This document shows positions 3,001 through 23,815 of a stretch of 34,196 nt of DNA, piece after piece (position 1 is the stretch's first letter; each line of letters begins with the position of its first letter). A program made the position numbers and the translations under genes. The stretch spans positions 1 to 34,196 of the forward strand of contig JANWKE010000163.1 of NCBI GenBank assembly GCA_025451535.1, read 5' to 3'. The notes under the pieces were generated by a model. It was given only the letters and a program-made list of their open reading frames with translations, did no database searches and was not told the origin of the DNA. Source of the DNA: Verrucomicrobiia bacterium (GTDB lineage Bacteria; Verrucomicrobiota; Verrucomicrobiia; Limisphaerales; UBA11358).

Positions 3001-4760
3001 ACACGCTCACCAACTACGGCGCGATCACGACGTTGAACGGCATGGACGGCACCGCCATCATTGGCACTGGCGGCAATGAAACCGTCAACAATTACGGCGT
3101 CATCATCGGCTCGGTTGACCTGGGCGGCGGCAACAACCAGTTCAACAATTTTTCAAACAGTTGGTTTAACGCGGGCGGAACGATCAATCTCGGCCAGGGC
3201 AATCTCTTTCGAAATTCGGGCGTGCTGTGTCCCGGCGGCAATGAAAGGATTCAGACAACGGCACTTACGGGCAATTTTACCCAAACCGCTGATGGGAGTC
3301 TCGGAATCAAACTGGCAGCGCTCCCCGACCAACTCGCCATCAACGGCGCGGCGGCCATCGACGGAACGCTCGTCGTCTCCCTGTTTAATGGTTTTGTGCC
3401 AACGAAAGGCGAGCAGTTTACAATCTTGACCGCAACGGACGGTGTGACCGGCCAGTTCACAACCCTGGACGATCAGTTGAAGAGCACCTATGCGCTTGAA
3501 CTCGGCGCTCTTTATGAGGGCAACAAAGTTGACCTGATTACTCTGCAAGGCAGCTTTATGCCGTTTGCCCTCACGCATAACCAGCGGGCGGTGGCCGGAA
3601 CCCTTGACTCCTTCTCCGGATACCTGAGCACGAACCAATTGCAAGGCGACCCGCGCGAGACGAATTTGATCGCAATCCTTGATGCCGTTCCCGGACCGCA
3701 GCTTCCGGCGAACTTCGACCTGATCGCGCCGGAGGAATTGGGCGCCCTGTTCGACATGGAATTCGGCAGTGTGGACACGATCGTCGGCAGTGTGCAAAGC
3801 CGTATGAACGATCTGCGCAATGGCTACGCGTTGGCGAGTGGCAGCGTGTCGCTGTTCGAACCGGGCGGACCCGTGATGCAATTGGCTTCCGCGGATCGGA
3901 GCCTGCCCTTGATGGAAAAATCCATGCCGAATGACGACTGGAGTGCGTTTGCCGGTGGCTACGGCCAGTTCATCAATGTCAGCAGCTCGGCCGATGCTCC
4001 CGGCTACCGTCTCCAGAACTCCGGCGTCACTTTGGACTTCGATAAACGGGTGGACACCGGCCTCGCGGGCGGGTTCACGCTGGATTACGCCGGCGGAGAA
4101 GCCAGCCTGGCGAATGGCGGCAGCGCGAACATGGAAGGTGGCCGGGGCGGCATTTACGGGACCTGGTTCAGCACCAACGCCTACCTGGAAGCCCAGGTGG
4201 GTGCCGGCGGCGGTCGTTACGACAGCAAACGCGCCGCGCTGGGTGGCTTTGCGAGCGGGGATACCAAAGGTTACGAAATTGATACCATGTTTGGCGGCGG
4301 CTATGACCTGCAACACACCGGTTTCACCAATTTCACTATTGGCATGCTGGCCGAGCTGCACTACGTCTATGTTGATATTGAGGGATTCACGGAAACCGGT
4401 TCTTCATCACCACTGCAGGTCATGGAAAACGACAGTCACTCCCTGTGGAGCTTGATCGGATGGCGTTTGGCATACGAATGGCACGTCGCCAGGGAAACCT
4501 TGCGGCCCGAGGTACGCATTGGCTGGCGGCACGAATTCCTGGACACGGCCCGGACGATCAAGTCGCAGATGGCCAGTGGTGCCGGAACCGTTTTCCAGGT
4601 GGAAAGTCCTTCCCTGGGCCGGGACAGCCTTTCCCTGGTCACCGGTTTGAGCACGCGCTGCTCGCAGCACCTTTCAATCTTCGCCTATTACGACGGTGAA
4701 CTGGCGCGCGACAATGCCGCCAGCCATACGGTGAATGGAGGCATTAGCTGGGACTTTTGA
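3..4760 (+). CDS. Giant autotransporter, 3' part (5' end outside window)
   Basis: The frame is open from base 3, so the start codon lies upstream. A TTG at 87 is only an internal codon. The passenger (to about 3000) is built of glycine-rich units that each begin with a QSVGGGGG or QSIGGGGG motif. A less repetitive linker follows (about 3000-3900), including a stretch near 3280-3450 typical of the passenger-to-barrel junction. The last 275 or so residues, from about 3931, alternate polar and aromatic residues as an autotransporter beta-barrel (PF03797-like) does, and the protein ends in WDF, the terminal aromatic expected for outer-membrane insertion. Expected role: the barrel sits in the outer membrane and exposes or releases a fibrous beta-helical passenger. 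The ligand cannot be told. The signal peptide would lie upstream. The domain call is confident; the function is open. Confidence 0.9.
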   Translation: MLTYGTNARGIFIQSIGGGGGSGAGSGGLVSIGGDGSSAGNGGIVTLTNSGMISTTGSLSTAIQVQSIGGGGGSGAGSGGLISLGGRGSSGGNGAAVIVANSGNIHTAGDDARGIYLQSIGGGGGDGAGSGGLVSIGGSGSLGGNGGSVTLTNSGSVTTLGDNADAIFAESIGRGGGSGAGSGGLLISIGGSGSGGGDGDSVTIANSGSLYTAGTNSCGIFGQSVGGGGGQGAGSGAYSFSMGGEGGDSGKGGSVSIVNSGSVTTMSNFSYSIFAQSVGGGGGSGRGSGAWSFSMGGNGAGGGDGGLVQVINTGALTTFGTNASGIFAESVGGGGGNGAGSGAFTVSLGGDGGNSGNGGVVTVTNAGAITTYGDNSPTIFAQSVGGGGGNANTVGAAIFSLGGDGNSGGNGSNVTVTTRQQLEAFGQNSSGIFAQSVGGKGGNGANVVNVSVAANIGVSVGIGGGGGQGGDGGLVTINSDSDIITSGTNGMGIVAQSVGGGGGNGGNTFVLSAAANVIDEIPFAANVAVSVGGSGGAGGNGGIVAVQSSGVIITSNSLSAGILAQSVGGGGGNGGNSTAVSLTYNCDVTANVAVGGKGGVAGNGAAVGVTNNGGIRTEGNYSSGIFAQSVGGGGGQGGDSTTISGDLSVLTSAEDISPSYSFTMSMGGNGGGGGTGGTVNVNSFNNIVTKGAFSYGIQAQSIGGGGGSGGNASTYQIELSNTPESLAPALSLLSFSSTFILGGNGGAGGDAGGVTVNNVSNVWTEGVFGVGILAQSVGGGGGAGGNVLTFDFSNDGLPESSSPFEDVLTNLTQFTQTMVVSNGMGGAGGNGGNVTVTNRGDIVTHGAFAHGILAQSVGGGGGFSGISDELDLSSLLFGPGTQAQGDATQSPGSGVSFAGSVGGNGSGGTVTVVQSGNIVTYGNDAHGIYAQSAGGLLSGQAVSVTVDGNIFAQGTNSDGIRAQSVGAAGGGDISVNILSGTVQGGWGSSVGVRLLGGAGNTLTNYGAITTLNGMDGTAIIGTGGNETVNNYGVIIGSVDLGGGNNQFNNFSNSWFNAGGTINLGQGNLFRNSGVLCPGGNERIQTTALTGNFTQTADGSLGIKLAALPDQLAINGAAAIDGTLVVSLFNGFVPTKGEQFTILTATDGVTGQFTTLDDQLKSTYALELGALYEGNKVDLITLQGSFMPFALTHNQRAVAGTLDSFSGYLSTNQLQGDPRETNLIAILDAVPGPQLPANFDLIAPEELGALFDMEFGSVDTIVGSVQSRMNDLRNGYALASGSVSLFEPGGPVMQLASADRSLPLMEKSMPNDDWSAFAGGYGQFINVSSSADAPGYRLQNSGVTLDFDKRVDTGLAGGFTLDYAGGEASLANGGSANMEGGRGGIYGTWFSTNAYLEAQVGAGGGRYDSKRAALGGFASGDTKGYEIDTMFGGGYDLQHTGFTNFTIGMLAELHYVYVDIEGFTETGSSSPLQVMENDSHSLWSLIGWRLAYEWHVARETLRPEVRIGWRHEFLDTARTIKSQMASGAGTVFQVESPSLGRDSLSLVTGLSTRCSQHLSIFAYYDGELARDNAASHTVNGGISWDF
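39..2930 (+). repeat. About 17 glycine-rich passenger repeats within the autotransporter
   Basis: Units of roughly 50-90 codons each start with a Q/E-S-V/I-G-G-G-G-G core followed by G-x-G-S or G-G-N. Each then has a second glycine cluster and a T-N-x-G-x-I-x-T strand-like stretch. By eye there are 17 cores, the last two (around 2800 and 2890) degenerate. The units also resemble each other at the DNA level around the core, so unequal recombination could change the copy number. The repeats are coding and in frame, so they are not a CRISPR array or a noncoding satellite. Confidence 0.85.
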
Positions 4761-6233: not shown

Positions 6234-7307
6234 ATGAACCTCAAACAAATTTCCCTTGGTTTTTTTCTGGTCCTCTTTTGCGCGATCCCGCCGGCGCTGA
6301 TGGCGGATGGTGCCACGCCGCCCTCCGTCAAGCCGGTGACCCCGAACGCCTCGCCGGAAGCGGTCCAATTGCTGCAGTATCTGTACAGCATTTCCGGCAA
6401 CCACACGCTGACCGGCCAGCATGCCGTGCCGCTGCTGCGTTCCGCGCGCCTGGTCGAGGCGCAGCGCGCCGGCGGAAATTATCCGGCGGTTTTCGGGATG
6501 GATTTTGGTTTCGATTCGCCCGGCACCTGGGATGGCATCAACTTCCGCCAGCAGATTGTGGACGAGGCGATTCAAAAATATCATGAGGGTTACATTATTG
6601 TGCTCATGTGGCACGCGGTGCGGCCGATTGAAGACGAGCCGGTCAAATTCAAGGATTCCATCCAGGGCAAGCTGACCGAGGAGCAGTGGCACGATTTGAT
6701 CACGCCGGGCACGGAGATCAACGAACGCTGGAAATCGCAGGTGGATGTCATTGCCTGGTTTCTCCAGCAATTGCGGGACGCGCACGTGCCGGTGCTCTGG
6801 CGCCCGTACCATGAAATGAACGGCGGCTGGTTCTGGTGGGGCCAGAAGCGCGGCCCGGACGGCTACCAAAAATTATACCGGATGCTGTTCGACCGGCTGG
6901 TGAATTTCCACAAGCTGAATAATTTAATCTGGGTCTATGGCGCCAATGAAGTGACACCGCCGAATGTGGATCCCTACGATACCTGTTACCCGGGAGACGA
7001 TGTCGTCGACGTTCTGGGCACCGACATTTACCACACGGGTTTTGCCCCGAATCAGTATGACCAGCTTCTGGCGCTGGCCAAGGCCAAGCCCATTGCGCTG
7101 GCGGAAGTCGGCGCCGCGCCGTCACCGGAAATTTTGAAGGAACAGCCACGGTGGACGTGGTTCATGGTCTGGGACGATCCGACGGAAGGCGGCTCCACGG
7201 CGCGGGGGATACGCGCCACCTACAACTGCGACCAGGCCATTACGTTGAACAAACTGCCGTGGGTGGAAGCCGGGCACCCGGCCGACCACTCGTTTACACA
7301 GCCATAG
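6234..7307 (+). CDS. Secreted glycoside hydrolase family 26 (beta-mannanase-like)
   Basis: The 357-residue protein has an N-terminal signal peptide (basic start, hydrophobic core, likely cut near ALMADG, residues 21-26), so it is exported. GH26 signatures are clear: SGNHTLTGQH near residue 55, GMDFGF near 88, the acid/base motif WRPYHEMNGGWFWWG with E194, and the nucleophile motif ALAEVG with E291. GH26 enzymes are retaining glycosidases, mostly endo-beta-1,4-mannanases, with some acting on mixed-linkage glucan or xylan, so mannan is the likely but unproven substrate. No carbohydrate-binding module is seen. The 3' end overlaps the convergent kinase gene by 14 bases. The ATG at 6234 directly precedes the signal peptide. 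Confidence 0.9.
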   Translation: MNLKQISLGFFLVLFCAIPPALMADGATPPSVKPVTPNASPEAVQLLQYLYSISGNHTLTGQHAVPLLRSARLVEAQRAGGNYPAVFGMDFGFDSPGTWDGINFRQQIVDEAIQKYHEGYIIVLMWHAVRPIEDEPVKFKDSIQGKLTEEQWHDLITPGTEINERWKSQVDVIAWFLQQLRDAHVPVLWRPYHEMNGGWFWWGQKRGPDGYQKLYRMLFDRLVNFHKLNNLIWVYGANEVTPPNVDPYDTCYPGDDVVDVLGTDIYHTGFAPNQYDQLLALAKAKPIALAEVGAAPSPEILKEQPRWTWFMVWDDPTEGGSTARGIRATYNCDQAITLNKLPWVEAGHPADHSFTQP

Positions 7308-9354
7308 TGGAGCCGGAATCAATCGGCAGCAGGACGCGCACGGTGCCATGCTGGCCGGCCTGCGGGGGAACGATTTCCAGTTTGCCGTGGTGCGTTTCGA
7401 TGATTTTGCGGCTTACGGTGAGGCCCAGGCCGAGGCCGACGTTGCGCGTGGTGAAAAAGGGCGAGGGTACTTTCTGCGCAGTTTCCGAGGTGAAACCCGT
7501 TCCGTTGTCCTGGACTTCAATTTCCAGTTCGCGTCCGCCCGTGTTGTTGGGATTGGTGTGCAACTTCACACCGATCCTGGGTTCCTTGGGATTGGCTTGC
7601 AAGGCGTTAAGCATGATTTCGGCCAGGGCATGTTTCAAGGCGGCGCGGTCGCCGGTGATGACGATGGGTTTGCCGCCATTCTCGTATTGCAACTGGGCCT
7701 TGTCCGCCGGTTGGTGCTTGCGCGCCTCCTGGTAGGCATCTTCGATGAGTTGCTCGACGGGGAACGCCTGCGGTTCCGGTTCGTTCTCCCGCGCCAGAAA
7801 TCGCATCTGGTTGAGCAAGCGCGAAACCCGCTTGACCCCGTCGGCCAGGGCGAAGTCGAGCGATTTGCGGAACTCCGCGTCTCGGAATTTTTCCCCGAGC
7901 AACTGTTGATGGGTGGAGAGCGGCACCATCGCATTGCCGATTTCGTGCGCGAGCCGGTCGGCCATGGCCTTGATGAGGCGGAGATTGGCGGCCTCGACCT
8001 CCAAATGGCGCAACTGTTCGGTTTGAGTGAGGTCCTCCGCCGTCAGCAGGGCGGAAACCGGCACGGAGGAATTCCCGCGCTGAAACGGGACGACATTGAC
8101 GCTGTAAACGGTGCCCGGCGAACTCTCCGGCTCGTAACGGAACGGTCCCATCGCTGCGCCGGTGTGCAGGACCTGATAAATCTTCGCACCCAACACCTGC
8201 GGCAAATCGCTGAATTCCAGTTCGCCGGTCCGCCGGTTTTTGTGGCCGAAATGGCGGCGGGCCGCCTTGTTGGCGTGGAGCACCCGCAGGTCGCGCCCGA
8301 CGACGACACACGCGCTGCTGAGTTCCCGCAGCACATCCGTCATCATCTCGTGATTGCCGGCCAGCTGGTCGTGCAGCCAGATGTTGCGCAGGGCCAGGCC
8401 AACCTGTTCGAGCAGATGGAAAATGAGTTCCAGTTCGGTGTTGACCAGCGGTTCGCCGGTGACACGGCCGTCGAAGACGGCGACGCCCACAACTGTTTCG
8501 CGGTCGAGCACGGGCACGGCGACCTGGGTGCCGAGCAATTCAAATTCCTTCTGTGCCTCGGGGTCGGCGCGGACTTCGTCGCTGTCGCGACGGAGGATTC
8601 GGCCCAGCCGGACCAGTTGTCCGCCGATCCCGGCCTCGAGCGACAGTTCAAAATGTTCGAGCAATCCCGACGGGAGACCGATGGCGGCGGTGGCGCGCAG
8701 ACCGTGGTTCTGACCCGGGGACACCGTTTCGCTGAGCGGCAGGACGGGGCGGTTCAAAAAAATGGCGGCGCGATTGACGCTGAAAATTTCGCGCAAGAAC
8801 AGCAGGAATTGTTTGAGCATGGCCTCGGCATTCAGGGAATGCGTGAGGATGGACGAAAAATCGCGCAGGACATTCAGCGTCTGCGACGCATTGGCAACGC
8901 GGCCGGAAAGCGATTCGGTGGGGCGTGAGACGGCAGCCGGTGGCAGCAAGGGCGTAAGGGCCGTCGGTTGAGTGGCGCGCGCTTGCGGATACTTGGGCAC
9001 CGACCAGAGGCGCTCCAGCAGTGAATTGAGCAGCCGGGCGCGGATAGGTTTGGTCAGGACATGGGTGACACCGTGCAGGAAAGCCTCTTCCTCCCATTCG
9101 GACTGGTTGTCGGCGGAGTAGGCAATGATGGGACATTTGCTGTCGCGCCGGCGAAGCCGTTCGATGACCCAAACTCCCTGGACCCCGATGAGATCAACAT
9201 CCAGAACGCAGGCCCGGACCAGCCCATGGGTTAACAGCGGTTCGGCTTCCTCCACTCCGATGCGATGAACAATACGATACTCCTCCGGGTTCAGACTTGC
9301 CTGAATCACTTCGGCGAAGTCTGGATGAGGAGACAACACCAAAATGGTTTTCAT
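7294..9354 (-). CDS. REC-GAF-PAS sensor histidine kinase
   Basis: This is a soluble 686-residue kinase. Residues 1-117 are a receiver-like domain (acidic LDVDL with D52 or D54, TKP lysine K102). About 165-325 is a GAF domain, 338-445 a PAS domain, then a dimerisation domain with H470 in a LAHEIGN motif, an N-box asparagine near 583, DNGTG at 616-620 and GLGLGL near 641. The N-terminal receiver lacks the canonical paired acidic residues after the first strand, so it may be degenerate. It is the last gene of the signalling block on this strand, 127 bases after the previous gene, and may have its own promoter. It could be an accessory regulator of the Phc-like locus. Its input signal is unknown. 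Confidence 0.85.
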   Translation of the reverse strand: MKTILVLSPHPDFAEVIQASLNPEEYRIVHRIGVEEAEPLLTHGLVRACVLDVDLIGVQGVWVIERLRRRDSKCPIIAYSADNQSEWEEEAFLHGVTHVLTKPIRARLLNSLLERLWSVPKYPQARATQPTALTPLLPPAAVSRPTESLSGRVANASQTLNVLRDFSSILTHSLNAEAMLKQFLLFLREIFSVNRAAIFLNRPVLPLSETVSPGQNHGLRATAAIGLPSGLLEHFELSLEAGIGGQLVRLGRILRRDSDEVRADPEAQKEFELLGTQVAVPVLDRETVVGVAVFDGRVTGEPLVNTELELIFHLLEQVGLALRNIWLHDQLAGNHEMMTDVLRELSSACVVVGRDLRVLHANKAARRHFGHKNRRTGELEFSDLPQVLGAKIYQVLHTGAAMGPFRYEPESSPGTVYSVNVVPFQRGNSSVPVSALLTAEDLTQTEQLRHLEVEAANLRLIKAMADRLAHEIGNAMVPLSTHQQLLGEKFRDAEFRKSLDFALADGVKRVSRLLNQMRFLARENEPEPQAFPVEQLIEDAYQEARKHQPADKAQLQYENGGKPIVITGDRAALKHALAEIMLNALQANPKEPRIGVKLHTNPNNTGGRELEIEVQDNGTGFTSETAQKVPSPFFTTRNVGLGLGLTVSRKIIETHHGKLEIVPPQAGQHGTVRVLLPIDSGSTMAV

Positions 9355-9481: not shown

Positions 9482-10738
9482 TCAGGCTGAAGTGAGCAGT
9501 TTTTCCCACAAATTCTCGTTGAGCAGCGCCTTCCGGAGAAAATCCGTATCGCTGGAGGAAATGGTCACCGGTTCCCCCTGGAGCGGCAGGTGGAGGGTGA
9601 AGGTCGTGCCCTGACCGGGCTTGGTCCTGGCTTCAATCTTGCCGCCGTGATGATGCACGATGAAGAAGCACGCCATGAGGTGGATGCCGTATTCGGACGG
9701 CGTCTGGTCGCGCACGACAAACGGATCAAAGACCGCCCGTAGCGCTTCCTCCGGCAGGCCCGGGCCGTTGTCGTTGATTTGCACAACGATTTCCGGCGAA
9801 GGACCATCCTGCAATTCTGCCGCCAGGGTGATCCGGCTGCCGGCGGGCAGCATCGCCAGTTCTTCCTTCAGCAACAGTTCAAACAGCCGGGTGAATTTCG
9901 GCCTGTCCACCCGCAACAGAGGCAGCGTATCCGGAATGCGGTTTTCAACCTCGATCCGCCGGGCGGCCAGCGGTTCCTTGTACAATTTCACCGCGTCGCC
10001 GACGATTTGATACAACGAAACCTGGTCGGTGAAGGGCGCCGACGGATTGGACGACGCCGTCCAAAGGTCTTTGAGCAAGGCGTTGATTTTCTCGATTTGC
10101 GACTGCACGTTTTGGTGGTAGTCCTTCCAGAAGTCGGGATTACGCAGACCCTGCAAATCCGTCTTTTCCTCGCTCATTTTCACCGGCGCGAGATCGAGAA
10201 AGGTTTTCACCGCCACCAGCGAATTGCGGATGTGATGGCTCAGTCCGGCGGCCAGCAGGCCCAGGCTGACAATGCGGTCGGCGATCAGCATGTTATGCAG
10301 GACAGACATTTTCTCGCGGAGCAACTGGTCGCGTTCGGACTGCACGATGAAAAATTCCAGCCCGCGCTTCAGGGTTTGTTCCAGTTGCGGCGGGTCCCAC
10401 GGTTTGGAAACGTACTTGTAAATCGCGCCGCTGTTGACCGCGGCGATCGCGGCGTCCATGTCGGCGTAGGCGGTGACCAGCACCCGGATGACGCGCGGAC
10501 GGAATTGCCGGGCGCGCTCCAGCAGCCACACGCCCTTTTCGCCGGGCATCCGCTGGTCGGTCATCAGCAGGCCGATTTCATCAGCGTGGTCCTCCAGCAA
10601 TTTGAGGCCTCCCTGCGCGGTCGTCGCCGTCATGGTGCGGAATTGCTCCCCGAAGGCGCGCGTGAAGTTGGTTAATGACTTCTCTTCGTCGTCCACGTAA
10701 AGAATCGCAAATTTTTTATAGTCGTACAGGTTCTCCAT
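9482..10738 (-). CDS. Receiver-histidine kinase protein, PhcQ-like
   Basis: The 418-residue protein starts at ATG 10738, overlapping the upstream gene by 23 bases, with a GGAA site about 8-10 bases before it. The longer frame to 10810 is entirely inside the upstream gene. Residues 8-125 are a receiver (YVDDE with D16/D17, TDQRMP with acceptor D61, T89, SKPW with K112). This variant is common in proteins that sense or relay cell-density and redox signals. The kinase part has an unusual H-box, GLSHHIRN (H168-H169, where the second His replaces the usual Glu), DNGPG at 323-327, and no recognisable N-box asparagine, since its place near 290 reads LLLKEEL. Domain order matches Ralstonia PhcQ (and PhcR). 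ATP use looks doubtful. It is the third gene of the Phc-like operon. Confidence 0.82.
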   Translation of the reverse strand: MENLYDYKKFAILYVDDEEKSLTNFTRAFGEQFRTMTATTAQGGLKLLEDHADEIGLLMTDQRMPGEKGVWLLERARQFRPRVIRVLVTAYADMDAAIAAVNSGAIYKYVSKPWDPPQLEQTLKRGLEFFIVQSERDQLLREKMSVLHNMLIADRIVSLGLLAAGLSHHIRNSLVAVKTFLDLAPVKMSEEKTDLQGLRNPDFWKDYHQNVQSQIEKINALLKDLWTASSNPSAPFTDQVSLYQIVGDAVKLYKEPLAARRIEVENRIPDTLPLLRVDRPKFTRLFELLLKEELAMLPAGSRITLAAELQDGPSPEIVVQINDNGPGLPEEALRAVFDPFVVRDQTPSEYGIHLMACFFIVHHHGGKIEARTKPGQGTTFTLHLPLQGEPVTISSSDTDFLRKALLNENLWEKLLTSA

Positions 10739-13403
10739 GTTCAATTTCCGGTTCGGCGGTCGGTTTGGTCTTGGCGGGGAAATCCAGGATAAATTCGCAA
10801 AAATGGCCAACCTCGGTGTTCACCAATATGCGTCCGTCAAATCCTTTCACAATGCGGTGGCAAATGCTCAGGCCCAACCCCATCCCCTCCCCCACGTCCT
10901 TGGTGGTAAAAAACGGGTCAAAAATCTTGTCCAGATGCTTGCGTTCGATGCCCGGGCCGTTGTCGCGAACGATGACGAGGCTCCGGTCGTCCTCCAGCCG
11001 GCCCTGGATCGAAATCATCGGCGTTTCGTTCTCGAATTTTTTTTGTCGCATCGCGTCGAGTGAATTCTGCAATAAATTCACCAGAACATGAATCAATTTG
11101 TTGCGGTTGGCCAGCACCGTCTGTCCCGGGACGACTTTCAGTTCGACCCGCACCTTGTCCTTCCACTCGCCGGCCAGAAATCGCAGTGACGTGTTGACGG
11201 CCTCGGTCACGTCGACCGGCTCGGACGGTCCGGACTCCGGGTGCGTGAACATGCGCAGATCCGACACGATATTGCGCACGCGTTTCATGCCTTCCTCAAT
11301 GTCGCCCAGGATCTCCTCGTATTCATGGCGGGCTTCCGGCGTGAGTTGTTTGCATTTGTTGCGCAGGGCGAAAAGGCCGGTCGTCGCGAAATTCAGCGGG
11401 TTGTTGATTTCGTGGATGATGCCCGCGCTCATGCGGCCGAGGGAAGCGAGCTTCTCGGATTGCACCAGTTGTGACTCGGTATCCTTGAGTTGCTCGATGG
11501 TATTGGACAGCGCGCGGTTTTGCGTGGAAAGATGGCGCTGGAAATCGTGGGATTCGACAAGGTTTCGGATGCGCGCGTGAAGTTCGGTGGACGAGAAGGG
11601 CTTGGCCAGAAAATCATTGGCCCCCAGTTCCAGGGCATTGAACTTGGTTTCCTCATCCGCTCGCGCCGTCAGCAAAATGATGGGAACGACTGCCGTCTCC
11701 TCATGTTTGCGCAATTCCCGGCACACCGCCAGACCATCCATCTCCGGCATCATCATGTCCAGCAAAATGATGTCCGGCAGGAATTGGTTCGCCTTTTCCA
11801 TGGCCTGGATGCCGTCCGCCGCCTCCAGCACATCGTAATCCGCGTCGAGTTGCGTTCGTAAAAAACGCCGCATATCCGGTTCGTCATCGGCCACGAGCAC
11901 CACGGGCCGCTGGCCGCGTTTGCCCAATTCCACGGGCTTGGCTGCCCCGCGCAGGGACACCATGGCCGGAAAAAGTTCCGCGCGACGGTATAGATTGGCC
12001 AGCCATTCCTCCTTGGCAACCACACCGGTTTCCGCCGGGGTGCCGGTCGGGGATTTGGCCACCGGCTCCGCCTTTTGATACGGCAGGCGCACGGTAAAGC
12101 TCGTGCCTTTCCCTTCCTGGCTTTCCACCACCACGGTGCCGTGCATCATTTCGGTCAATTCCTTGACCAGCGCCAGCCCGATGCCGACGCCTTGATACCG
12201 GCGTTGCGCCGAACTGTCCGCCTGCCAGAAACGGTCGAACACAAACGGCAGGTTTTTTTCGGCGATGCCGATGCCGGTATCGTTGACAACGAAAACGAGT
12301 TCTTCGGCCTGCTTTTCCGCGCGCAATTCCACCCGCCCGCCGGCGGGCGTAAATTTCAACGCGTTGAACAAGAGATTGAGCACGACCTTTTCGACTTTGT
12401 CCGAGTCGGCGGCCACCACGCCCAGCCGCAGGTCGGTGTAGGTTTCCAGTTTGATTTGTTTGTCCTCCGCCACCTGCCGCGCCGCGCTGGCCAGGCCTTT
12501 GATGAAATCCGCAACTTCCACGGGCTCGTTTTTGATTTCCATCCGGCCGGCTTCCAGCCGGATGAGGTCGAGCAAATCATTGATGAGTTTGAGCAGCCGC
12601 ATGCCGTTGGCATGCATCGTGAGCAGCAATTCATGGACGCCGTTATCCACCTGGCCGGCAAAGCGTTGGAGCAGTGTTTCCAGGGGCGAGAGCAACAGCG
12701 TGAGCGGGGTGCGCAGTTCATGGCTGATGTTGGCGAAGAACCGGCTCTTGAGGCGGTCGAGCTCGACGAGCTTGCGATTCGTTTCCTCGAGTTCCCGATG
12801 GCTCTTGTCCAACTCATAGCGGAGGGTGAATTCGCGAAAGCGCAGCTGATTAAAAAGCCGGTTTCCGCACACGACGATGATTCCCGTGAGGACAAGGAAA
12901 TAAAGGTTGTTGAAGACGGCCCCGAATCTTTCCTCGCCCAAACCTCTAAACACATACGCCGTCAAATACATGAAAATGACGCTGCTGACGGCGAGCAGTG
13001 TCTCCAACATGCTCCAATGTCCTACGGCGCTGACGGCGAGCAGGATCAAGTTTAATCCCGCGTAGTAGGGTGAGGCGGACCCTGTTACGTATACCATCCA
13101 GGTGATGAAAAACGCGGGGAGAATTACAATGGGCAATCCCACCAGCGGATAATGTTTGCGTGCGATGGCAGTTGAGTGGAGCGCCCAGACCACGGCAATC
13201 AACAGCGAACACACGAGTCGTAATTCCAGGAATTCAACCAAGTAATCGCGGTAGACAAAATAATCCAGGACGATGCCCAGCGGCATCAAGGCGAATACCA
13301 GGGCGCAAGCAAGCCTGCCGGTACTGATGCGAACTTCCCGTTCGTTGGCAGAAAATGCCTTCCAGAATTCAGGCCCTTTCAAACTGTGATGATTAGCCGT
13401 CAT
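10716..13403 (-). CDS. Membrane hybrid kinase TM-HK-REC-HK (PhcS-PhcR-like fusion)
   Basis: The protein has 895 residues from ATG 13403, which overlaps the methyltransferase gene by 11 bases and has GGAGG 13 bases upstream. The GTG at 13448 is less likely. Residues about 30-190 hold around six hydrophobic helices. A coiled coil (about 195-225) leads to the first kinase core (H228 in ISHELRTP, N347, DTGIG, GIGLAL). A receiver follows (paired D near 506, acceptor D549, K601), then a second kinase core (H664 in IIHEINNP, DNGPG 814-818, GMGLGL). Both kinase cores look complete. In Ralstonia, PhcS is the membrane sensor kinase and PhcR is a receiver joined to a kinase. This gene reads as those two in tandem. 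It is probably the receptor and first relay for the product of the adjacent methyltransferase. Confidence 0.85.
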   Translation of the reverse strand: MTANHHSLKGPEFWKAFSANEREVRISTGRLACALVFALMPLGIVLDYFVYRDYLVEFLELRLVCSLLIAVVWALHSTAIARKHYPLVGLPIVILPAFFITWMVYVTGSASPYYAGLNLILLAVSAVGHWSMLETLLAVSSVIFMYLTAYVFRGLGEERFGAVFNNLYFLVLTGIIVVCGNRLFNQLRFREFTLRYELDKSHRELEETNRKLVELDRLKSRFFANISHELRTPLTLLLSPLETLLQRFAGQVDNGVHELLLTMHANGMRLLKLINDLLDLIRLEAGRMEIKNEPVEVADFIKGLASAARQVAEDKQIKLETYTDLRLGVVAADSDKVEKVVLNLLFNALKFTPAGGRVELRAEKQAEELVFVVNDTGIGIAEKNLPFVFDRFWQADSSAQRRYQGVGIGLALVKELTEMMHGTVVVESQEGKGTSFTVRLPYQKAEPVAKSPTGTPAETGVVAKEEWLANLYRRAELFPAMVSLRGAAKPVELGKRGQRPVVLVADDEPDMRRFLRTQLDADYDVLEAADGIQAMEKANQFLPDIILLDMMMPEMDGLAVCRELRKHEETAVVPIILLTARADEETKFNALELGANDFLAKPFSSTELHARIRNLVESHDFQRHLSTQNRALSNTIEQLKDTESQLVQSEKLASLGRMSAGIIHEINNPLNFATTGLFALRNKCKQLTPEARHEYEEILGDIEEGMKRVRNIVSDLRMFTHPESGPSEPVDVTEAVNTSLRFLAGEWKDKVRVELKVVPGQTVLANRNKLIHVLVNLLQNSLDAMRQKKFENETPMISIQGRLEDDRSLVIVRDNGPGIERKHLDKIFDPFFTTKDVGEGMGLGLSICHRIVKGFDGRILVNTEVGHFCEFILDFPAKTKPTAEPEIEHGEPVRL

Positions 13404-14916
13404 TCGGTTTGCGTGCCTCCAGGAATATGTTGATGCCCGTTTTATCACTCCTCATCCGGATGTCTTCCCGGGCGATTATGCCTGAGCAGATTTGTTCAAA
13501 TTGCGCCACGTTGCGATAGATCAAATGCCAGTCCAGAATCAGTTCCAGGCTGCCCCGGTTGGGAGCCAGGGGTGTGACATTGGTAACCACCAACAGTCCG
13601 CCCGGCGCCAGCCAGTCGTAAAAAATTTGTACTATTTGCTTGCACGCGGAATCGGTCAAATAATCGAACAGTCCGGCGCAGTAGATGAAATCATACGCGC
13701 ATTTTTCATTGCCTTGCTTCGTGGCCTGTTTGTACCCCTCTTTGATCAATTGATGAACGTTCCTTTTTTGGAACCGGACCGGGGTTCGCCAGCCAAGCCG
13801 TTCCTTGATGCGGGCGATCGCCTTTTGAGTATGGGCCAACGTTTCATTGTCGAAATCCGCCAGCGTGAACTCAAGCTGGTCGCATAAAGGGGAATCCTCG
13901 AGGAATTGCTGCACTTCGATGGCCGGGCCACAGGCGAAATTGAAAATACGGGCGCGTCTGCCTTCACGTGCCACCCGCAGCGTTTCCAGCTCAATGCATT
14001 TGGTGAGATACGTCAGCCGGTTGCGGTGGGCGGTGGCTGAACCTTGTTCGATCAGCCAGACATTAAAAATTTTGGCGAAAAGCGAAGCCCCTTCCTGCGG
14101 GTTTCTGGCCATCATGTTGACCATCTCATAATCCCCGGGATAGCCCAGGGGTTTTTCATACGCGCGCCGGGCAAAGGGAGCGCAGAGCACAATGGGATGC
14201 AAATGCCTTTGAATGTAATGGCGATGGGCCGGGCGCCTCTCTTCCTCCAGCTTTTGGCCGATGGTTTCAAACCTTTCGAACAAGCCGTTGAGCAAGGGAA
14301 TGATCTCCGGGATTAATTTTTCGATGACCGCCTGCTCCAATTGCCTCTGCCCCCCCTCCGGCAGGGAATGAATCGCCAGCTCCACCTGTTCCAGCCAAAG
14401 CCGCAAGTCGGTAAGGAACATTTCTATATCGGTGACCGCTTCCTTGAATTCCGGGAGGACCCGGTAGAGTTTTTGCCAGTCTCCCACAAAGCGACCGAAC
14501 TCTTCGACCAGCCGATGGTCGCACGTTGCCACCAGGTCGGCGCTCACGTCCAGCCAGCGCTTTTCATCAAGCGTAACCTCAAACACCTTTTTTGACCCCG
14601 CATCGACCAGGTTGCTGACCACAGCGCGTCCGGAATAAACCGTTCGGGTTTGTAGAATGATGGCGAATTCATCGATGGCTTCGGAGAGCCGTGGAATGAA
14701 GTCGGGATGGTACAACTCAAAGGTGACATGATGGCGCGTAATTCGCACGGGCACACCACTCAACCCCAACCCGTCACGGGTTTCAAAAGTCACCCGGCTG
14801 CCTCGATCTCCGGCTGAAGGCGCGGCGGGCGCAGGTCGCGGGACCCGTCTTTTGGCCGGGGGCAACAGGCCACCGGCCCCGCTGCCATTGCCATTGCCTT
14901 CGAGAATCTTGCTCAT
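13393..14916 (-). CDS. PhcB-like SAM-dependent methyltransferase with PilZ-like N-terminus
   Basis: The protein has 507 residues from ATG 14916. The frame runs on to 15174 but that part has no family character, and an ATG at 14937 is an alternative. Residues 1-38 are a low-complexity G/P/A linker. Residues about 40-125 resemble a PilZ-like domain (RTVYSGRAVVSNL). Residues 130-245 are helical. The segment GYPGDYEMVNMM (259-269) and HRNRLTYL (297-304) lead into a Rossmann methyltransferase with motif I FNFACGP (325-331), acidic LADFD (352-356), FIYCAGLFDYL (410-420) and LAPGGLLVV (436-444). From family knowledge this is the PhcB group, whose Ralstonia member makes 3-hydroxy fatty-acid methyl ester signals. 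The overlapping sensor-kinase gene supports a signal-synthase role. The product is inferred, and cytoplasmic location is likely. Confidence 0.8.
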   Translation of the reverse strand: MSKILEGNGNGSGAGGLLPPAKRRVPRPAPAAPSAGDRGSRVTFETRDGLGLSGVPVRITRHHVTFELYHPDFIPRLSEAIDEFAIILQTRTVYSGRAVVSNLVDAGSKKVFEVTLDEKRWLDVSADLVATCDHRLVEEFGRFVGDWQKLYRVLPEFKEAVTDIEMFLTDLRLWLEQVELAIHSLPEGGQRQLEQAVIEKLIPEIIPLLNGLFERFETIGQKLEEERRPAHRHYIQRHLHPIVLCAPFARRAYEKPLGYPGDYEMVNMMARNPQEGASLFAKIFNVWLIEQGSATAHRNRLTYLTKCIELETLRVAREGRRARIFNFACGPAIEVQQFLEDSPLCDQLEFTLADFDNETLAHTQKAIARIKERLGWRTPVRFQKRNVHQLIKEGYKQATKQGNEKCAYDFIYCAGLFDYLTDSACKQIVQIFYDWLAPGGLLVVTNVTPLAPNRGSLELILDWHLIYRNVAQFEQICSGIIAREDIRMRSDKTGINIFLEARKPNDG

Positions 14917-15072
14917 TCTGTATGCAGAATGAATCATTTTTCGCGCCAAAACAATGGGATTATTGCCATCCGCCGGGCCCTGTGGACATCCGATACGGGG
15001 GAGAGAATAGTCCCAGGGTGACGAAACGGACCATCTGTTCGCCCGCCGGGAAGCGTTTCGACGAACTGGCTG

Positions 15073-19924: not shown

Positions 19925-21196
19925 TTAAAAGTGCATCCCGACCGTCACCAACACCGCATGGCTGATGAAATCATATTTGCCGTCGGCGGTCTGACTGTTA
20001 TTCACTCCGGATAATGACGAGGGGGTGCTTCCGGAAACTGTGTGTGCCGGGCCGTAGCCGAATTGGTAGGTGACGTCGAAATCGAATCGCCTGCCTTTGC
20101 GACCGGCCCCGATGCTGAAAAAATGCCGGGTCAAGTCTGCCGCCAACGGGGTGTAATAGGCATCCGGCACTGAGGTTTCGTTATAAACATAACCGGCGCT
20201 GACATGCCAGCCGTTGTCAAAATACCGCGTCACGCCCAGTTCGTATATCCAGCTTGATTGCCAGTCGAAGGTCAAGGATGGGTCTTGTGTTCCCCCAGGT
20301 GGAGGACTGCCTTGTTGGTAGATCGTTGTTGTTTCAAAGCTGCCCCAATCCGTGTAATCAGCATCAAATTCCAGGTTCCATTTTGGCGTGGGGCGATAAG
20401 AAACACCAACAACCGCCGTCAACGGAAACGTAAAATCCGCGTGGGCCGGGAGGGTGGTAAAAGGTATTCCCGCCGACAACTGTTCGAATTCGGTCTGGCC
20501 ATCCATAGTAAATGGTGTTGCGCTACGGAAGGTTGCGCCGAGGGAAATTTTTTCATGCGGTTGCCAGAGCACGCCCAAATTATAGCCTACGCTCCAGCCG
20601 TCACCTTTGAAGCGATAGAAGTTAGCAGGTTGTGGAGAAGTCCGAAGCCCTGATTCCATATCGATGTTTCCGTAATCCACCATGACACCTCCGCCGATGG
20701 ACAAGTTTGGCGCCAGCTTAAACGCAACAACGGGGTTAACTCTGAAATACTTGAGTGATCCCTCAGTGGCAAGAGTTCGAAACCCGGTATCCTGCGGCCA
20801 ATCGATGTTTCCGCCATACGGCGCATATACTCCCAGTCCCACACTGACCGGACTATTTTCAAACGAATGCGTGAGAAAAAGCTGCGGGATGAAATTGTAG
20901 TGCTTGCCGATGTTGTAGGTTGCCCCGGCATTCGGCGCCGTGTCGGGTGGTCGGAAGGTCGGATCGAGATAAATGCTGTAAAGTCCGCTTCGAAGCTGGC
21001 TGCCCTCAAGCTGGGTGATGCCGGCAGGATTGTAATAAATGGCAGATGCGTTGTCTGCCGTGGCAGCGAACGCCTCACCGCGAGCTGTCGCAAAGCCGTC
21101 CTGGCTTGCCAGCCGAAAACCGTTCGCTGAAGCGTCCGAGACCGAAAGACTCATCAGGATGATCGCAAGAAGCCTTGATGTGTTGTGTCGGTTCAT
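19925..21196 (-). CDS. FadL/OmpP1-family outer-membrane hydrophobic-compound channel
   Basis: The 423-residue protein has a signal peptide (MNRHNTSRLLAIILM, cut after DASA). The mature N-terminus NGFRLASQD and the NPAG motif in SAIYYNPAGITQLEG are diagnostic of FadL, which moves long-chain fatty acids and other hydrophobic molecules across the outer membrane through an N-terminal hatch. The rest alternates as a barrel (GLGVYAPYGG, VGVSYRPTPKWNLEFDADYTDW, FDVTYQFGYG) and ends in VGMHF, an outer-membrane terminal phenylalanine. It starts with ATG at 21196 with only a weak ribosome site. It is divergent from the SGNH gene. The ligand could be fatty acids, aromatics or the methyl-ester signal proposed for the nearby locus; the last is speculation. 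Confidence 0.9.
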   Translation of the reverse strand: MNRHNTSRLLAIILMSLSVSDASANGFRLASQDGFATARGEAFAATADNASAIYYNPAGITQLEGSQLRSGLYSIYLDPTFRPPDTAPNAGATYNIGKHYNFIPQLFLTHSFENSPVSVGLGVYAPYGGNIDWPQDTGFRTLATEGSLKYFRVNPVVAFKLAPNLSIGGGVMVDYGNIDMESGLRTSPQPANFYRFKGDGWSVGYNLGVLWQPHEKISLGATFRSATPFTMDGQTEFEQLSAGIPFTTLPAHADFTFPLTAVVGVSYRPTPKWNLEFDADYTDWGSFETTTIYQQGSPPPGGTQDPSLTFDWQSSWIYELGVTRYFDNGWHVSAGYVYNETSVPDAYYTPLAADLTRHFFSIGAGRKGRRFDFDVTYQFGYGPAHTVSGSTPSSLSGVNNSQTADGKYDFISHAVLVTVGMHF

Positions 21197-21370
21197 TTTA
21201 CCGGTTATTGGTTCAACAACTGGACGGACACCTAAAGGGCGCGTGGGTGATGCCCTTGACCAAACAGGTTATCTGCCGTTTTACGTCACGCCAGCAAATT
21301 CCCGGAACCAGCCTCGTTAATAGCACTCCCGTCTTTACATTGGTCTGGCTTGGGGCAGACTCGGGAAAAT

Positions 21371-22543
21371 GTGAAAAGCTTCATTCGATTCACATGGTGT
21401 CTGTTGTTGTTCGGAATTGTCGTTCTTCCCACCCGAGCTTCGTTCTCGTCACTCTACATTTTTGGAGATGGCGTTTCCACTACCACAAATAATCTGGTAG
21501 CTGGCCAATCACCTTATTATGGCCTACGCCGTTCCAATGGCCGGGTTTGGGTTGAAGTGCTGGCGCAGCAATTGAATCTGACCAATAATTTCTGGTATTC
21601 CAACAACATCGCAAACCATCTGTCGTACACCAACCTGTCAGCTTCCAGTACCAACTGGTCTTACTCTAGTAACAATTGGTCCTATTATGGAGACGACAGC
21701 ACGAATCAAAACATGAATCTGGTGGCGAATGTCAATGCCTTCATCGCGCCGCCAGATGCCTCAAACGCCCTGTTCATCGTTTGGGTCAATGACGCCAATT
21801 TTGTTGATTATATGGGCTCCATTTACCCTTCGACGAATATAGTCACATGGACCAATGCCATCAACCAGTCGCTATCCAACCAATGGCAGGCTGTCACAAA
21901 TTTGTATTTTGCCAAAGGGGCTCGCATTCTGGTTATGCCGAACGCCGTTGATATTACCGAGATTCCACAGTACAATGCTAACCCTGCAGCTGTTAAAAGT
22001 TTCGTCCGCCAAAGAATCATTGATTTCAATGTCGAGTTCACCGCCATGTTGAGCAATGCCATGGACACATGCCCCGGCTTACGAATTTATGAGCCGGACT
22101 TTTTTGCGAAGCTCGATGACGTTTTGACCAACGCCGCTGCCTACGGAGTTACCAATGTACTTTCCGGTGGACACACTACTGACGCGGTGGAAAACCTGAC
22201 GAACCCATCCCTGAATGGTCCGGGCGCAAATTACATCTTTTGGGATGCGACTGACCCGACGGCAAAGGTCCATGCGATCATGGCGGGTGTCGCCAGGCAG
22301 CTCATCGCTCCGGTGGAAATCGACGAAATCACATCACAGAATGGCACCAATCAGTTGGAACTGGCCAACGTGCCGGTCGGCTTGAATGGCATTGTGCTGG
22401 GCAGTTCGAATCTGGCACTGACGAATTGGACAACGGTGATGAGTTTCAACAGCACCAACACCGTCCAACCGGTTTTCGTCCCGATGTCCGGCCCCGTGCA
22501 ATTTTACCGGCTGAATTTTCCGTTCACCTGGACCTGGCCGTAA
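21371..22543 (+). CDS. Secreted SGNH/GDSL-like protein, catalytic residues apparently lost
   Basis: The protein has 390 residues from GTG 21371, which has GGGA a few bases upstream and begins a good signal peptide (MKSFIRFTWC, cut after PTRA). A TTG at 21350 would spoil it. The order of blocks fits plant-type GDSL esterases: YIFGDGVS (30-36) for block I, FIVWVNDANF for block III, and FWDATDPTAKVH (about 290-301) for block V. In block I the nucleophile position reads Gly (GDG, not GDS), and in block V the usual His of WDxxHPT reads Asp (D295). The next Ser (36) and His (301) might substitute, or the protein may bind rather than cut. The C-terminal 75 or so residues, ending FYRLNFPF, look like an appended beta-sandwich tail. 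It is asparagine- and threonine-rich between blocks. Confidence 0.75.
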   Translation: MKSFIRFTWCLLLFGIVVLPTRASFSSLYIFGDGVSTTTNNLVAGQSPYYGLRRSNGRVWVEVLAQQLNLTNNFWYSNNIANHLSYTNLSASSTNWSYSSNNWSYYGDDSTNQNMNLVANVNAFIAPPDASNALFIVWVNDANFVDYMGSIYPSTNIVTWTNAINQSLSNQWQAVTNLYFAKGARILVMPNAVDITEIPQYNANPAAVKSFVRQRIIDFNVEFTAMLSNAMDTCPGLRIYEPDFFAKLDDVLTNAAAYGVTNVLSGGHTTDAVENLTNPSLNGPGANYIFWDATDPTAKVHAIMAGVARQLIAPVEIDEITSQNGTNQLELANVPVGLNGIVLGSSNLALTNWTTVMSFNSTNTVQPVFVPMSGPVQFYRLNFPFTWTWP

Positions 22544-22569
22544 GCGGGGAATGCTGAACGCAGAATGAA

Positions 22570-22627
22570 GAATGCAGAAACAGGAATTCTGGTCATTCCG
22601 CCTTCTGCATTCTGACTTCTGCATTCT
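22570..22627. repeat. Palindromic repeat with three copies of a 10-base unit
   Basis: GAATGCAGAA at 22570-22579 is matched by its reverse complement TTCTGCATTC at 22603-22612 and again at 22618-22627. It can fold as a stem-loop between the convergent SGNH and DAHP synthase genes and may act as a two-way terminator, though no clean T-run is present. It reaches into the DAHP synthase reading frame. Confidence 0.7.
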
Positions 22628-23678
22628 CCGGCAGTTTCCCCAGCATCTCGTAACCCCAGCGCAGCATGCGTTCGGTGGTTTCCCAGCCGATGCACGAGTC
22701 GGTGAGCGACACGCCGTAACGCAGGTCCTTCAGGTTTTTCGGGATGGGCTGGTTCCCTTCGTGCAGGTGGCTTTCGACCATCAGGCCGATGAGCGCGCGC
22801 GTGCCTTCGACGCGTTGCTGGATGACGCTGCGCCACACGTCCTCCTGTTTCGCGAATTGTTTGCCGGAGTTCGCGTGGCTGCAATCCACCATCAGTACCG
22901 GCGGCAGCTTTTCCGCCTTCAATATCTCTTCCGCCGCGCGGATGCTGGCTGCGTCGTAATTGGTCTGGCTCCGTCCCCCGCGCAGGACGATGTGAGCGTG
23001 CGGATTGCCGGTCGTGCGCACAATGCTCGTCACACCATCCTCGCTGATGCCCAGAAAACTGTGCGGGTGCCGGGTCGCCCCCATCGCGTCAATCGCCGAT
23101 TGCAGGCTGCCGTCGGTATTGTTCTTCAAACCGATGGGCATGGACAGGCCGCTGGCCATCTCGCGGTGCGTCTGCGATTCCGTCGTGCGCGCGCCAATCG
23201 CCGCCCACGTCACCAGGTCCGCCGTGTATTGCGGCACGATCGGGTCGAGAAATTCCGTCGCCGTCGGCAGACCCAGGCCGGTGATTTCCAGCAACAGTTT
23301 CCGCGCGATTTTCAGACCGGTTTCAATGTCCTGCGACCCATCCAGGTGCGGATCATTGATCAATCCTTTCCAGCCGATGGTGGTGCGCGGTTTCTCAAAA
23401 TAGACGCGCATGACGATTTCCAGGCGGCCGGCCAGTTCCTGGCGCAACGCATTGAGCCGCGTCGCGTACTCCAGCGCGCCCTTTTCGTCGTGGATGGAGC
23501 ATGGCCCGATGACGACCAGCAGGCGCGGGTCTTCCTGCCGCAGGATGCGGATGATCCGCTCGCGGCTGCGCGCCACCGTGGCGTTCGCGGCGTCGGGCGT
23601 CGGCAACTGCGCCTTTAATTCCCGCGGCGTCAGCAGCCGGACGATTTCTTTAACGTGTAAATCCTGCGTCCGATACAT
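22593..23678 (-). CDS. aroG: 3-deoxy-7-phosphoheptulonate (DAHP) synthase, class I
   Basis: The 361-residue enzyme condenses phosphoenolpyruvate and erythrose 4-phosphate, the first step of the shikimate pathway, in the cytoplasm. It has the class I (AroF/G/H) signatures: VVIGPCSIHD with metal-binding C60, VYFEKPRTTIGWKGL (93-106), GARTTESQTHREMASGLS, VLRGGR and DCSHANSGK. Length and start match the family. The aroF, aroG and aroH forms cannot be told apart here. The last 11 or so residues (ENAEVRMQKAE) are encoded by the palindromic repeat and are probably not original. The start ATG at 23678 has a TATACT 7 bases upstream. The gene is alone on its strand, with the insertion sequence 90 bases upstream of its start. 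Confidence 0.95.
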   Translation of the reverse strand: MYRTQDLHVKEIVRLLTPRELKAQLPTPDAANATVARSRERIIRILRQEDPRLLVVIGPCSIHDEKGALEYATRLNALRQELAGRLEIVMRVYFEKPRTTIGWKGLINDPHLDGSQDIETGLKIARKLLLEITGLGLPTATEFLDPIVPQYTADLVTWAAIGARTTESQTHREMASGLSMPIGLKNNTDGSLQSAIDAMGATRHPHSFLGISEDGVTSIVRTTGNPHAHIVLRGGRSQTNYDAASIRAAEEILKAEKLPPVLMVDCSHANSGKQFAKQEDVWRSVIQQRVEGTRALIGLMVESHLHEGNQPIPKNLKDLRYGVSLTDSCIGWETTERMLRWGYEMLGKLPENAEVRMQKAE

Positions 23679-23767: not shown

Positions 23768-23815
23768 ATATTCTCACCACATAGGTAACACTTTGTTCTC
23801 AGGAGATGGGTGACA
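23768..23815. repeat. Left terminal region of the insertion sequence, two units
   Basis: An outer unit (23768-23790) and an inner unit (23791-23815) both match, inverted, the two 24-base units of the right end. The inner unit ends in ATGGGTGACA (23806-23815), which is also the transposase start codon, so a transposase-binding site probably overlaps the start of translation. Confidence 0.7.

Follow-up and report, generated by a model that had tools for sequence, protein, structure and literature searches.

A rebuilt version of the Ralstonia phc signaling gene set, with a FadL-type channel gene close by, identified by homology in a distant bacterium

The phc gene set serves chemical communication in Ralstonia, where it senses crowding. 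Our analysis identifies, by sequence homology, a rebuilt version of this gene set in a distant bacterium of the Verrucomicrobiota, with a gene for a FadL-type channel close by. With regard to the host, TIGR02598 gave two matches under its cut-off of 51.4 bits (25.1 and 21.6 bits), too weak to bear on its placement. Within the stretch of DNA that we analyzed (the window, 34,196 nucleotides), overlapping genes encode homologs of PhcB, PhcS, and PhcQ, which are arranged in the Phc order and conserved as a block. On balance, and with some reservation, we favor the reading that they form a Phc-type phcB-phcS-phcQ operon without phcR, acting as a hydrophobic autoinducer circuit; most likely, this circuit would use a fatty acid ester and have its own uptake port.

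The original prediction had described three overlapping minus-strand genes, one for a methyltransferase, one for a hybrid kinase in the membrane, and one for a receiver-kinase, and the open reading frames, codons, and Pfam matches agree with that description. Inspection of the ATG and stop codons gave overlaps of 11 bp between genes 1 and 2 and of 23 bp between genes 2 and 3; the methyltransferase gene stops at 13393 and likely starts with the ATG at 14916, with an alternative start at 14937. Pfam matched gene 1 to Methyltransf_12 (3.7e-5) with 24.8 bits where the cut-off is 30, gene 2 to two HATPase_c domains, two HisKA stretches, and one Response_reg domain, and gene 3 to Response_reg, HisKA, and HATPase_c. 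Gene 3 is followed, on the same strand, by an accessory fourth kinase gene, which recurs in the downstream position in 19 of 56 loci, the window included. Alpha/beta hydrolases, a GDSL-lipase match below its cut-off, and OprB are also encoded near the operon. The features are as follows.

13393..14916, minus strand: PhcB-like methyltransferase with an N-terminal beta domain, a helical middle, and a class I SAM methyltransferase domain (BLAST, tree, AF2)
10716..13403, minus strand: PhcS-type membrane kinase, into which an HK1-REC cassette is inserted (Pfam, BLAST, kinase tree)
12813..13373, minus strand, borders approximate: PhcS membrane sensor region (25% identity to R. pickettii PhcS, alignment)
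12054..12773, minus strand, borders approximate: HK1, the inserted kinase domain (missing in short-form sisters; kinase tree)
11553..11912, minus strand, borders approximate: inserted receiver domain of gene 2, not PhcR (receiver tree)
10764..11513, minus strand, borders approximate: HK2, the PhcS kinase domain (kinase tree)
9482..10738, minus strand: PhcQ-like protein with receiver, linker, and degenerate kinase (BLAST, receiver tree, N-box check)
7294..9354, minus strand: accessory fourth-gene kinase with degenerate receiver, GAF, PAS, and HK (Pfam, neighborhood counts)
19925..21196, minus strand: FadL/TodX outer-membrane channel (Pfam PF03349, genome counts)

As a reference, we used the R. 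pickettii phcBSRQ locus (L160), recognized by four published residue positions, PhcB R22, PhcS H230, PhcS L161, and PhcQ R154, all of which it carries. Reciprocal BLAST within the two stretches paired the window methyltransferase with R. pickettii PhcB (35% identity over 461 amino acids, E 1e-90; 32 to 36% for its separate parts), and such searches support the kinship with the Phc proteins that had been proposed from family motifs. The original assignment of the methyltransferase as PhcB-like also held in a tree, where it falls into a full-length family with PhcB, apart from the shorter methyltransferases (branch support 96/88, with long-branch warnings). For this tree, a selection of 80 rows from the available loci was reduced to 70 by dropping four long branches (L185, L184, L179, and L032) and six near-copies. 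The AF2 model of the methyltransferase has a mean pLDDT of 80.1, and in a PDB search its methyltransferase part matched 3ocj with a Z score of 20.4, superposing 253 residues at an rmsd of 2.9. Among the models listed for the R. pickettii proteins (Pfam and NCBIfam for PhcB and PhcQ, Pfam for PhcS and PhcR), none is named PhcB or PhcQ.

The three genes recur together. Among the group's loci whose contigs extend far enough, 48 of 51, the window included, have all three in identical order and on the same strand, and the PhcS gene adjoins phcB in 54 of 55 assessable loci; L164 and L138, where the gene is there and the ORF starts overran the permitted distance, are counted as positive, and the phcB of L110, split into two ORFs, is counted once. 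The expected co-occurrence of the methyltransferase with these kinases was borne out, as both kinase partners stand beside 48 of 51 full-length methyltransferases versus 2 of the 17 rows from outside Burkholderiales that have a short methyltransferase. The same block, with PhcR added in most, is found in the Burkholderiales-type loci (n = 81). The named scan lists the best 80 matches, ranked by closeness to a Paraburkholderia protein, and gives no measure of absence elsewhere.

A linkage that had not figured in the original prediction concerns the FadL gene, the sole PF03349 match found in this genome. FadL lies within 4.8 kb of the operon in 34 of 43 genomes, where random placement would yield 0.2, and away from it in 5 of 39 assessable genomes. 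It is present in all 43 methyltransferase-positive genomes versus 5 of 16 methyltransferase-negative ones, whereas the control porin OprB is found in 22 of 43 and 7 of 16, respectively (p 0.77). Within the genus, methyltransferase and FadL occur together in 29 genomes, both are missing from 7, and neither occurs alone. Well-supported branches of the single-gene tree (Obg, 55 of 59 genomes; three had no match and G010 a partial one) leave only three independent pairs, too few for significance. BLAST with the window FadL gave no convincing match within reach of 12 full-length loci from other families of the phylum, where it returned two short fragments, and none within reach of 80 full-length Burkholderiales-type loci; the link between FadL and the operon is restricted to this order.

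Such a channel would also suit another scenario, in which the homologous genes sense foreign fatty acids or hydrophobic nutrients entering through FadL, with the methyltransferase serving to modify or detoxify this ligand and no self-made signal involved. While the FadL linkage and the neighboring alpha/beta hydrolases, sub-cut-off GDSL-lipase match, and OprB are consistent with nutrient sensing, OprB does not co-occur with the methyltransferase, synthase-like and sensor-like genes adjoin in 48 of 51 loci, and the homologous Ralstonia trio belongs to an autoinducer system according to the portions consulted of two reports (PMC8578825, PMC10653808); we regard this scenario as rather unlikely. 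A second alternative would retain signaling but change the substrate of the methyltransferase to another methyl ester or a protein, making this a non-fatty-acid signaling operon. An identity of 35% to PhcB leaves the substrate unfixed, and the values for the methyltransferase parts (32 to 36%) and for the sensor against PhcS (25%) are compatible with such a change. However, alignments containing the window-type and PhcB groups share many invariant columns in the methyltransferase domain, and a hydrophobic channel is linked to the operon, so that a changed substrate seems to us distinctly improbable.

With respect to gene 2, the membrane sensor is 25% identical to that of R. pickettii PhcS (alignment and BLAST), and HK2 shares 39% identity with the PhcS kinase over 259 amino acids. 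In the kinase tree, which like the receiver tree was built from the genes of 41 chosen loci, HK2 and PhcS form one 41-row set (SH-aLRT 98), and HK1 falls into a separate 20-row set (SH-aLRT 98) that includes one row labeled as a short form. The HK1-REC block is missing from many sister species, and in the aligned short-form proteins the membrane part is joined straight to HK2. A separate cassette tree has 50 rows; dropped from it were 13, mostly short forms, comprising one truncated protein and 12 without a match to the H-box pattern, of which some are cut or shortened and seven read HDILNP-, HDVLNP-, or HEIKNP-like, with the His kept. Gene 2 thus has a homologous sensor and kinase beside phcB, plus an extra HK1-REC block. 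Judged by homology, we identify the membrane sensor and last kinase as PhcS and the HK1-REC block as a cassette inserted within it.

The first proposal, a PhcS-PhcR fusion followed by PhcQ, has in its favor the resemblance of the domain order TM-HK-REC-HK to PhcS plus REC-HK. We reject it as very improbable, as the receiver of gene 2 groups beside that of the fourth gene and away from PhcR, its last kinase groups with PhcS, the short forms run from the membrane part directly into HK2, and a PhcR-like gene was found in none of 56 related loci. Of the phcB-phcSR-phcQ arrangement in the original prediction, the order of PhcB, PhcS, and PhcQ therefore stands, but the PhcR part does not. PhcR, a receiver-kinase, likewise went undetected in 3 of 81 Burkholderiales-type loci, and a phcR deletion in strain OE1-1 left quorum-sensing phenotypes largely unchanged, according to the part consulted of PMC8578825; for these reasons, we do not take PhcR as defining. 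That generic kinases and a generic methyltransferase are neighbors by chance, as the purely generic domain names from Pfam and NCBIfam might suggest, is hardly credible given the block in 48 of 51 loci and in the 81 Burkholderiales-type loci.

The earlier PhcQ assignment proved right for the receiver and linker of gene 3: the protein is 43% identical to R. pickettii PhcQ over 204 amino acids (BLAST), and its receiver falls into one set with that of PhcQ (SH-aLRT 98). Past the linker, similarity between the two is undetectable and the region is not alignable (hhalign probability 2 to 3%). The kinase ending the window protein, in which Glu replaces the N-box Asn, is probably inactive. The idea that the C terminus of PhcQ is itself a decayed kinase found no sequence support in the hhalign comparison and remains a guess; in PDB searches with the PhcQ model, receivers filled the list of matches, which bears on the receiver part.

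No PhcA had been noted in the window, and this extends to the genome with caveats: it has four LysR-type matches in all, and our partial PhcA candidate, whose identity is presumptive, found no match there. The candidate matched none of nine genomes of the group, but it also lacked a close match in three of five phc-bearing betaproteobacterial genomes. As no PhcA match was found, we propose that the PhcQ-like protein acts on another partner. In the circuit that we favor, the methyltransferase would form a (3-hydroxy) fatty acid methyl ester, which would exit the cell and return via FadL. The PhcS membrane sensor would then detect the ester, and HK2 would phosphorylate the receiver of the PhcQ-like protein. 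The flow would be tuned by HK1-REC and by the fourth gene. The PhcQ-like protein would pass the signal to its partner through its linker and pseudokinase. We tentatively raise the possibility, less secure than the circuit itself, that an order outside Betaproteobacteria possesses a Phc-type ester quorum system in which a dedicated FadL port is a fourth core part and a PhcQ-type receiver-pseudokinase, as the last link, replaces PhcA and PhcR.

Carried by most of the genomes sampled from a distant order, the homologous operon would offer these bacteria a testable communication signal. The comparison would separate core Phc parts (B, S, and Q) from add-ons (R and A), and the linkage would suggest FadL as an entry route for such signals.

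Across 6,937 proteobacterial genomes, a survey from 2023 placed the phc cluster only in Betaproteobacteria, according to the portion consulted (PMC10653808), and the excerpts of the literature covered contained no report of Phc in Verrucomicrobiota or of FadL together with PhcB. The LvrA/LvrB hybrid kinases (NCBIfam NF047465 and NF047466) resemble genes 2 and 3 at the level of generic kinase similarity, not membership: LvrA, the best of the NCBIfam matches listed for gene 2, reached 317.8 of 1200 cut-off bits, and LvrB, among those listed for gene 3, 56.7 of 500. In Sinorhizobium fredii, long-chain N-acyl homoserine lactones (AHLs) are taken up via FadL, which parallels the FadL-family channel and the putative hydrophobic long-chain signal of the window, but the signals there are AHLs, and the consulted part of that report describes no gene-order link between fadL and a synthase gene (PMC9938287). 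The phc-type operon on the Paraburkholderia graminis plasmid pPHS1_P (L031, NZ_CP024936.1) has the order B-S-R-Q and a methyltransferase 34% identical to ours over 77% of the query; unlike the window, it is plasmid-borne, with a 134-amino-acid receiver at the PhcR position and a PhcS of the ordinary short form. Compared with phcBSRQ of Ralstonia, Cupriavidus, and Paraburkholderia, the window has no PhcR and no PhcA match, and it carries an HK1-REC cassette in PhcS, a probable pseudokinase ending the PhcQ-like protein, an accessory fourth kinase, and a FadL gene nearby. Common to both are the full-length PhcB-type methyltransferase, the PhcS sensor and kinase, the PhcQ receiver and linker, and the order B-S-Q.

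Our data make it near certain that the operon in the window is a rearranged homolog of the Phc operon, which serves quorum sensing in Ralstonia. It lies on contig C163 of a 4.40-Mb draft genome comprising 188 contigs, and the features considered here, including a FadL/TodX gene, are as follows.

13393-14916, minus strand: methyltransferase gene (ORF; stop at 13393, likely start at 14916)
10716-13403, minus strand: hybrid membrane kinase gene, gene 2 (ORF)
9482-10738, minus strand: receiver-kinase gene, gene 3 (ORF)
7294-9354, minus strand: fourth gene, with receiver, GAF, PAS, and kinase domains (Pfam)
19925-21196, minus strand: FadL/TodX gene (Pfam PF03349)

The methyltransferase and hybrid kinase genes overlap by 11 bp and the hybrid kinase and receiver-kinase genes by 23 bp, while a 127-bp gap precedes the fourth gene. 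Because Pfam and NCBIfam give the operon proteins generic domain names only, the Phc relationship is invisible to annotation alone. The window also encodes a 1557-aa protein with an autotransporter beta-domain (87-4760) and, close to the FadL neighborhood, an integrase-core gene (23806-25014) that also matches an IS481-type leucine zipper.

Searching named genomes with a profile of the family returned at least 577 relatives; the analysis retained the best 80, those nearest to a Paraburkholderia sequence. We use "Burkholderiales-type" for the genera found among these best 80 (Ralstonia, Cupriavidus, Paraburkholderia, Janthinobacterium, Massilia, Pseudoduganella, Duganella, Rugamonas, and Candidatus Nitrotoga) and for the other betaproteobacterial records among them. 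The reference locus from R. pickettii SSH4 (L160) consists of four consecutive genes encoding 470, 442, 368, and 335 aa. We accepted it as a true phcBSRQ locus because Arg22 of PhcB, His230 and Leu161 of PhcS, and Arg154 of PhcQ fall exactly at the positions reported for strains of the R. solanacearum complex (PMC6989110, PMC11960443).

In a gene-by-gene comparison restricted to the reference and window stretches, PhcB matched the window's methyltransferase with 35% identity over 461 aa (E 1e-90), and its three parts taken separately, including the N-terminal beta domain, each gave 32-36%. PhcS matched gene 2 with 39% over 259 aa, located on the last kinase domain of gene 2 (HK2), and with 25% in the membrane sensor. 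PhcQ matched gene 3 with 43% over 204 aa; gene 3 was the top match of PhcR as well, but it favors PhcQ (146 versus 114 bits).

The trees agree with this assignment. The methyltransferase tree (70 rows, 261 columns; 80 rows in an earlier version) separates the full-length proteins of the Burkholderiales-type loci and of the window's relatives from the short ones on a branch supported at 96/88, with a tool warning of long branches meeting among the short methyltransferases, and the Burkholderiales-type rows grouped with genome G393 at 100/100. The receiver (86 rows) and kinase (108 rows) trees are quick trees with SH-aLRT support only. In the former, PhcQ and gene-3 receivers form one set (98) with PhcR separate, and the internal receiver of gene 2 joins that of the fourth gene, far from PhcR. 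In the latter, PhcS, nine short-form rows, and the long-form HK2 domains form one set of 41 (98), the inserted kinase HK1 makes up a separate set of 20 (98) that includes one row labeled short form, and the PhcR and gene-3 kinases each stand apart.

The original prediction read gene 2 as a PhcS-PhcR fusion; this is replaced by an HK1-receiver cassette gained or lost repeatedly within a PhcS-like kinase. In the short form (about 450-490 aa) found in the window's genus, HK2 follows the sensor without interruption, as it does in PhcS; the long form (about 900 aa) of the same genus carries the cassette between them. Apart from the window, 52 loci were scored, and ORF length sorts them into 27 long forms, 24 short forms, and one kinase of 687 aa. 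Contig ends truncate L063 and L067, both counted among the short forms, and L063 is a long form, since part of HK1 is present. On an HK2 tree (50 rows, including seven reference rows), at least four changes of form are required, three of which are forced by well-supported branches, and the block has therefore been gained or lost repeatedly. The short-form kinases of L048, L062, L066, L070, and L073 carry the H-box HDILNP rather than HEINNP.

The PhcQ-like protein conserves the receiver Asp and the linker, and its C-terminal domain clearly derives from a kinase, with an hhalign value of 99.9% against PhcS-type kinases. The C-terminus of published PhcQ is described as uncharacterized (PMC6989110), and past the linker hhalign detected no similarity between PhcQ and the window's protein. 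The H-box retains its His in 33 of 49 rows, and the N-box Asn position holds Asn in 0 of 43 filled rows and Asp or Glu in 40; the window's protein has the His and a Glu, respectively. Judged by these residues, it would be a pseudokinase. L165, L166, L167, L169, and L170, relatives from other families of the class, encode a protein of PhcQ size that lacks the ATPase part. Downstream of the methyltransferase, L167, L169, and L170 have a tandem PhcQ-like pair and then a third receiver-type gene, suggesting a longer relay.

The window's group of related loci comprises 56 full-length loci including the window, five of which end too early, leaving 51 for neighbor counts. PhcS-like and PhcQ-like genes both follow the methyltransferase in 48 of these, the PhcQ-like gene being missing at L058, L168, and L173, and PhcR was found at none of the 56. 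Among 81 Burkholderiales-type loci, selected on the methyltransferase alone, all have PhcS and PhcQ and 78 have PhcR, which was not found at L102, L127, and L142. Outside the Burkholderiales type, the pair accompanies short methyltransferases in 2 of 17 rows (eight from the window's group, five from R. pickettii's class, and four plasmid), and on the strand of the Pseudanabaena plasmid protein L032 (344 bits, annotated 280 aa) neither gene was found. The two rows, L175 (5506-9347) and L176 (2860-6724), place a 319-aa methyltransferase near the pair; both come from one genus (f31, g59) and represent a second Phc-like set parallel to the full-length one, which the same genomes also carry. A Paraburkholderia graminis plasmid typed conjugative carries a phcBSRQ-type operon (L031, 7971-12346) with a 134-aa receiver at the PhcR position, and the PhcR-type ORFs of loci L082-L096 are comparably short (140-253 aa). 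The phcB-S-R-Q order is complete in Candidatus Nitrotoga (L147, 9971-14899), and a Cupriavidus draft genome has a phcB-like gene split between two open frames (L110, 1981-3372).

The window's FadL gene is the sole PF03349 match in its genome. Across the genus and order, 43 of 59 genomes, the window's own counted, have the methyltransferase; FadL occurs in all 43 versus 5 of the 16 negative genomes, two of the five being weak (Fisher P = 1.6e-8), although draft genomes can lose linked genes jointly and species are not independent. Within the genus, 29 genomes have both and seven neither (P = 1.2e-7). The porin family OprB, also in the window and used as a control, showed no association (22/43 versus 7/16, P = 0.77). 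In 34 of the 43 genomes, no more than 4.8 kb separates FadL from the methyltransferase, against 0.2 expected under random placement, with a median gap of 258 bp and 25 within 500 bp; in the nine others, contig ends cut in (G026, G051, G035, G023) or the contig is not cut (G040, G050, G020, G011, G056). On a single-gene tree of Obg, covering 55 of the 59 genomes, well-supported branches yielded only three independent pairs, on average 2.5 in the same direction and none opposite, a number too small for significance. BLAST with the window's FadL found at most two short fragments at 12 full-length loci from other families of the phylum, and no FadL in the flanks of 80 full-length Burkholderiales-type loci; the linkage is limited to the window's order. 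Beside FadL, a GDSL-lipase match below cutoff and an unknown gene (21350-23618) recur upstream of the methyltransferase at 13 and 19 of the 56 loci, respectively, window counted.

Regarding output, PhcQ is reported to bind PhcA in Ralstonia (PMC13320629). The window's genome has four LysR-type HTH matches. About 10 kb past phcQ, R. pickettii has an open frame lacking its N-terminal part, a candidate PhcA by its LysR type and its position, which we take to be that of phcA in strain GMI1000. This partial sequence had a 72% match in one Cupriavidus genome and no match at E 1e-5 in nine genomes of the window's group; in Janthinobacterium, Nitrotoga, and P. xenovorans, LysR matches were weak or absent. 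Such sparse matches suggest that PhcA may not be part of the Phc-type system everywhere.

In conclusion, a FadL partner accompanies the rearranged Phc operon in this taxonomic order, and the operon would probably function as an ester-based autoinducer circuit, a reading made slightly less likely because the FadL link stops at the order. FadL reportedly mediates the uptake of long-chain AHLs in Sinorhizobium fredii (PMC9938287). A 2023 survey that covered Proteobacteria only found phc in no class but Betaproteobacteria (PMC10653808), and our literature search found no report of phc beyond them. Full-length methyltransferases occurred in 13 of 240 genomes drawn from the window's phylum (any match, 15) and in 2 of 184 from R. 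pickettii's class, one being R. pickettii (any match, 6). Partly on the basis of these different draws and of the deep split in the trees, we place the window's group outside Betaproteobacteria.
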